DNA from: Patescibacteria group bacterium | GTDB lineage: Bacteria > Patescibacteriota > Minisyncoccia > Phycocordibacterales > UBA1006 | NCBI GenBank assembly: GCA_028286885.1 | Contig: JAQBQS010000009.1 | Location: 1 to 44,323, forward strand | Direction: 5' to 3' | Length of the DNA stretch: 44,323 bases | Shown here: one piece after another, positions 16,268-40,105 of the stretch | Position numbering within the stretch: position 1 is the first letter of the stretch | Layout: each line of letters begins with the position of its first letter | Translations under genes and position numbers: made by a program | The notes under the pieces: generated by a model | Told to the model about the DNA's origin: nothing | What the model saw: only the letters and a program-made list of their open reading frames with translations | Databases searched by the model: none

Positions 16268-16332
16268 TTTTGCATTATAGCAGGTTTCCATAGTCAAGAA
16301 AAAATACCCTTCAAAGGGTATTTTTTCTTCTG

Positions 16333-20653: not shown

Positions 20654-20726
20654 GCCAAAGTAGCTCAGTTGGTAGAGCACGTCTTTCGTAAAGACGGGGT
20701 CGCCGGTTCAATCCCGGCCTTTGGCT
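20654..20726 (+). tRNA. tRNA-Thr(CGT)
   Basis: GCCAAAGTAGCTCAGTTGGTAGAGCACGTCTTTCGTAAAGACGGGGTCGCCGGTTCAATCCCGGCCTTTGGCT. Confidence 0.95.
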
Positions 20727-20730
20727 CACG

Positions 20731-21462
20731 ATGTCACGACAAGAAAATAACAATGCGTCCGCATGGGAACGAGAATACCGGGAGCCGACGTTTTTAACGA
20801 TGGGAACGGAACCCATTAATGCGGTAAAAGATTTTGTGAAATGGATGAGGAAACAGGTGCGGAAAAATCCTGCGGATTTTTCCGCACCTGTTTCCGAGTG
20901 GAATATCCTTGATCTCGGCTGCGGCAACGGAAAAAATTTGAAATACATTGTCGAGAATTATGCAAAGAGCGGAATTGGTTATGACGTATCCGAAACGGCG
21001 ATTGCGGCTGCGCGCGGGCTTGTCGATGGCTTAAAATTAAATTACGAAGTTCGTTCAATTGCGAATATCTTTCCGACTCGCGATTCGTCGATTGATTTAG
21101 CACTCGATGTTACGAGTTCGAATTCTCTCACAAATTCTGAACGTGAAAAGTTTCTCGCCGAAGTTTCGCGCGTATTGAAGCCGGGTTCATATTTCTTTAC
21201 TCGAGCATTATGCAAAGATGGCGATGCCAATGCGAAAAATCTGATCAAACAATTCCCGGGAAGCGAACCCGATACTTACATTCTTGGCGAAACGGGAATT
21301 ACTGAACGAGTATTCTCAAAACAGGATTTCGAGGGGGTCTACGCGCCGTATTTTGAAATTGTTCACTTAGAGAAATTATGGGGATACCAGAAATGGGGAG
21401 ACCGGACGTACAAGAGAAACTACTGGATTGCTTATCTAAAATCCAAGAAATCCGCCTCATAG
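20731..21462 (+). CDS. Class I SAM-dependent methyltransferase
   Basis: ILDLGCGNGKNLKYIVENYAKSGIGYDVSETAIAAARG; begins 4 nt after the tRNA. Confidence 0.85.
   Translation: MSRQENNNASAWEREYREPTFLTMGTEPINAVKDFVKWMRKQVRKNPADFSAPVSEWNILDLGCGNGKNLKYIVENYAKSGIGYDVSETAIAAARGLVDGLKLNYEVRSIANIFPTRDSSIDLALDVTSSNSLTNSEREKFLAEVSRVLKPGSYFFTRALCKDGDANAKNLIKQFPGSEPDTYILGETGITERVFSKQDFEGVYAPYFEIVHLEKLWGYQKWGDRTYKRNYWIAYLKSKKSAS
20849..20895. repeat. Perfect 22-bp-arm inverted repeat within the methyltransferase ORF
   Basis: GGAAACAGGTGCGGAAAAATCC TGC GGATTTTTCCGCACCTGTTTCC. Confidence 0.97.
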
Positions 21463-29055: not shown

Positions 29056-29138
29056 AATTCAAATCAAAAAATATCCGAGAATTCTCGGATATTTTTTGTA
29101 AATAAAAAACCGGCTGCAGAGCAGCGCGGTTTGTAATG

Positions 29139-40057: not shown

Positions 40058-40063
40058 CACATA

Positions 40064-40105
40064 AAAAAGCGGCGGAAATGCGAAGCATTTCCGCCGCTTT
40101 TTTAT
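40064..40105 (+). terminator. Strong terminator after tRNA-Lys
   Basis: AAAAGCGGCGGAAATGC gaa GCATTTCCGCCGCTTTTTT. Confidence 0.88.

Follow-up and report, generated by a model that had tools for sequence, protein, structure and literature searches.

Template switching at imperfect inverted repeats is an established mutational process in E. coli (PMC7202029), perfect stems or hairpins have been proposed to arise in one event of this kind (PMC8794818), and in yeast template switching is known to alter coding sequences and the proteins they encode (PMC8604942). In this work, we describe a perfect 47-base palindrome lying within a methyltransferase gene, found in a window (the whole stretch of DNA analysed) of 44,323 nt. 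The palindrome is very probably the product of a single, recent fold-back (quasipalindrome) template-switch mutation, fallen within a linker of variable length; it is a fresh instance of an already known mutation type.

As in the quasipalindrome mutations of E. coli lacZ and thyA (PMC7202029), and in the creation of hairpins (PMC8794818), an inverted copy of adjacent sequence would have perfected a short repeat in one event; in contrast to those systems, the present case is reconstructed from one natural sequence with no close ancestor, and 6 nt at the return junction have no explanation. Template switches in yeast coding genes (PMC8604942) similarly change several adjacent codons by reverse-complement copying, but mostly homogenise the arms and invert the spacer, producing substitutions, while here an in-frame insertion of seven residues is observed. 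Perfect inverted repeats within protein-coding genes are also found in the mitochondria of Nematomorpha (PMC6649704), where, however, they are many, reach 284 bp and encode conserved residues in both arms; the methyltransferase contains only one, of 47 bp, whose right arm corresponds to an extra, non-conserved segment. The Rickettsia palindromic elements (PMC10969869) share with our palindrome the in-frame location within a bacterial gene, but belong to families which are present in many copies, measure about 150 bp and encode a conserved peptide, whereas the sequence described here is single-copy, 47 bp long, and accounts for a gain of about 21 nt, encoding a peptide of which no second copy was found.

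The host gene (20731-21462, plus strand) encodes a class-I SAM-dependent methyltransferase of 243 aa, recognized by Pfam as Methyltransf_25 (PF13649, E=9.5e-16) and, likewise above cut-off, Methyltransf_11 (PF08241), and containing motif I, DLGCGNG; no NCBIfam equivalog scored above cut-off. Named relatives of the protein are found in Candidatus Taylorbacteria, Zambryskibacteria and Daviesbacteria, indicating a genome of the Patescibacteria type. A tRNA-Thr(CGT) gene, identified by ARAGORN at 20654-20727 (plus strand) and relevant as context only, lies directly upstream: the methyltransferase ORF starts 3 nt past it, and the palindrome 121 nt past its last base. The palindrome follows the N-terminal helix (VKDFVKWMR) and precedes the LDLGCGNG motif. 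Since the conserved residues SAWEREYREPTFLTMGTEP are encoded upstream of it, the coding sequence does span the palindrome; a mis-called start, which would turn the palindrome into an intergenic one, was considered and rejected because of this conserved N-terminus. Codon usage of the arms (0.64 for the left and 0.71 for the right one, against 0.73 for the whole gene) is not discriminating.

The palindrome consists of two 22-nt arms, 100% complementary, identified by a repeat search at 20849-20870 (GGAAACAGGTGCGGAAAAATCC) and 20874-20895 (GGATTTTTCCGCACCTGTTTCC) on the plus strand, and separated by the 3-nt spacer TGC (20871-20873). It is the longest perfect inverted repeat of the window, and the corresponding RNA is predicted to fold with an energy of -38 kcal/mol (z = -10.5). 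When the whole window was resampled 60 times by a first-order Markov model, allowing loops of up to 8 nt, the longest arm measured 13 nt (median 9), and 13 nt was also the maximum when the synonymous codons of the gene were permuted 2000 times, leaving the protein unchanged: neither base composition nor amino-acid sequence may thus produce an arm of 22 nt. Two statements of a preliminary description of this DNA, namely that the arms are far longer than chance would allow and that the palindrome lies in frame within a methyltransferase coding sequence, are confirmed.

Orthologues were searched for in 61 genomes, including the one under study, and a match was found in 31 of them; the genus comprises only four genomes. 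The nearest congener, G001, has a methyltransferase with 73-75% amino-acid identity and about 70% identity at the DNA level. The G001 protein (WLR-RKEKIDMSDF-V-VLDLG) and the host protein (WMR-KQVRKNPADF-[SAPVSEW]-N-ILDLG) align without gaps through the left arm and the following D-F, after which the host protein features 7 additional residues, SAPVSEW. The linker is equally short in G003 (61% identity), 7 residues less than in the host protein. The left arm, encoding the RKQVRKN region at the end of the N-terminal helix and aligned without gaps to RRKEKID of G001, is therefore probably the ancestral one. Perfect arms longer than 7 nt are absent from the corresponding region of all 33 orthologous sequences, within which the distance to motif I is variable. 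On this comparison the palindrome is private to the host lineage, the right arm appearing as the added part. A refuting test proposed in the preliminary description, namely orthologues keeping the peptide in the absence of the palindrome, came out differently: they have neither the palindrome nor the peptide of the right arm, a result indicative of a private mutation by inverted duplication. The event is recent, since the arms are free of mismatches, although G001 differs at 38 of the 72 synonymous third positions that could be compared.

Relative to G001 and G003, the inserted material corresponds to 21 nt in frame (20881-20901, plus strand), encoding residues 51-57. Its first 15 nt (20881-20895) reproduce 20849-20863 exactly as reverse complement, and directly continue a 7-bp inverted repeat, AAAATCC-TGC-GGATTTT (20864-20880, plus strand). 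An inverted copy which runs on from such a short repeat is characteristic of fold-back template switching. The first 7 nt of the right arm, GGATTTT, encode the shared D-F and look ancestral; the short repeat is compatible with an ancestral seed, as suggested by direct reading and by the gapless alignment to the D-F common to G001, the DNA of which is too diverged to reveal the ancestral bases.

According to this model, the ancestral gene would have contained AAAATCC-TGC-GGATTTT, where either the nascent strand paired with itself or the polymerase jumped to the other strand; about 15 nt of upstream sequence would then have been copied as reverse complement before synthesis resumed on the proper template, resulting in a perfect palindrome with 22-bp arms and in the in-frame addition of SAPVSEW. 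The sequence predicted for the gene lacking the insertion is ...AAAAATCCTGCGGATTTT, directly followed by GAGTGG or AATATC. Against the model count the last 6 of the 21 inserted nt, GAGTGG, unexplained at the return junction; part of the extra linker length could predate the event, as linker length varies anyway. With the nearest relative only about 70% identical in DNA, neither the exact switch points nor the ancestral seed may be reconstructed, and we infer how replication acted and in which direction, as well as the ancestral bases and the neutrality of the insertion. In itself, the palindrome is most likely without function. The insertion would have been tolerated owing to the variable length, within the family, of the segment which joins the N-terminal helix to beta-1/motif I, in agreement with the earlier suggestion that the protein tolerates changes here. 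In an AlphaFold model, built on a 6-row alignment (mean pLDDT 63.7), residues 46-57 mostly fall between a helix (29-45) and a strand (58-61), although a model of this quality is insufficient to demonstrate a surface loop.

The same structure might be an assembly or library artefact, generated by a chimeric snap-back molecule taken into a contig of a fragmented assembly. The genome is indeed an incomplete assembly of 16 contigs, and inverted snap-back chimeras are among the by-products known for strand-displacement amplification (PMC9484634). Such chimeras, however, typically do not return to the original sequence, while here the sequence resumes the reading frame of the correct gene downstream, the net gain being a multiple of three, and does so at a point coincident with the length variation observed among relatives; moreover, 47 bp are short enough to be contained in one short read. 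An artefact is thus quite improbable.

A functional RNA hairpin downstream of tRNA-Thr, for example one which attenuates transcription, stabilises the mRNA or serves the 3' processing of the tRNA, would fit the stability of the predicted fold, the distance of 121 nt from the tRNA gene and the abundance of long perfect hairpins, mostly intergenic, in the rest of the genome. In a sample of 468 of the 846 kb of the genome, taken as stretches and including 408 kb in ORFs of at least 100 aa defined by a simple caller, a search for perfect palindromes with a minimum arm of 12 nt found 73 in non-coding regions or at ORF edges, and 8 inside called ORFs. Among these 8, the methyltransferase palindrome alone, by our reading, falls clearly within the body of a real coding sequence; the others flank tRNAs, occupy implausible frames, or precede what is likely the true start. 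A terminator-like T/A run marks an end of 39 of the 45 palindromes whose arms reach at least 14 nt, but is missing from this one, which is flanked on the right by GAGTGG, with no T-tract. No terminator-like site was found at the end of the full stem on either strand, and those that were reported correspond to short sub-stems within it; the preliminary description was thus right in not regarding it as a standard terminator. It had also proposed an mRNA hairpin, which, as a conserved mRNA or tRNA-processing structure, is not supported: the hairpin is missing from every orthologue, even from those with a tRNA-Thr(CGT) nearby. As it lies in a translated region, it would in addition be unwound by ribosomes. 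A functional role of this kind is therefore highly improbable.

In 400 kb from five relatives, a few arms of 13-15 nt were found in called ORFs, one of them near the start of a 1266-aa ORF, along with one 25-nt arm in a doubtful ORF of 129 aa. A clear coding arm of 22 nt is therefore rare, but not different in kind.

Searches by DNA, pattern and peptide found the palindrome only once in the 846-kb genome (16 contigs), with no second copy of either the DNA or the peptide. Only short, chance-like matches of 14-34 nt were found in 60 relatives, and many of these matches appear on each strand simply because a palindrome was used as query; plasmids did not contain the palindrome, and viral contigs gave no match to its exact 35-mer. 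The insertion of a dispersed element, akin to the Rickettsia palindromic elements as once supposed, is scarcely credible, notwithstanding the in-frame palindrome, its tolerated position in a small bacterial genome and the presence of another small palindrome family in the genus, because neither DNA nor peptide recurs in the genome or, short hits aside, in the 60 relatives, the net gain is just about 21 nt, the left arm can be aligned to the gene in its ancestral form, and the Rickettsia elements, about 150 bp long, occur in multiple copies and encode a conserved peptide (PMC10969869).

A template switch in the methyltransferase gene would show, in a clean natural case, how a single error of replication may write a perfect 22-bp hairpin into an ORF and extend a protein linker. 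It also suggests caution, as a perfect palindrome within a coding sequence is not necessarily a regulatory or mobile element. The mutation is neat, yet ordinary, and opens no new biological system. It is unlikely that fold-back template switching is unusually active in the genus, repeatedly writing or perfecting palindromes such as the intergenic hairpins, a genus-restricted family sharing CCACACCAA and the coding insertion; if this were true, the process would contribute measurably to changes of protein linkers in genomes of this small size.

The intergenic hairpins are perfect, with arms of 14-25 nt, loops of 0-7 nt and A/T runs at their ends; they are found in the window at 16296-16329, 29065-29098 and 40061-40105, and many more in L060-L084. 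Their ends are as expected of two-way terminators, while the perfection of such long structures is notable in itself. The CCACACCAA family, unrelated in sequence to the methyltransferase palindrome, is characterized by a common outer arm, (CC[AG])CCACACCAA...TTGGTGTGG, and by a middle part which is variable, but self-complementary. Five copies are found in G000 (C1:3463-3512 in L072, C8:11725-11774 in L060, C11:1-48 in L079, C14:16479-16529 in L082, and C15:58585-58614), four of which feature perfect arms of 22-24 nt, and three in G001 (C28:7641, C53:6555 and C54:3813); none was detected in 39 other relatives.

In G001, a 49-nt inverted repeat (80%; 1953-2191 of L070, C11) pairs a complete minus-strand tRNA-Thr(CGT) with the remnant of a tRNA-Thr 3' half, which directly precedes the methyltransferase start; this tRNA-methyltransferase junction represents either a rearrangement or a misassembly. 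In a further relative, G055, two adjacent perfect palindromes, with arms of 15 and 14 nt, lie within 90 bp (13786-13874 of L093, C3), in a doubtful ORF of 123 aa.
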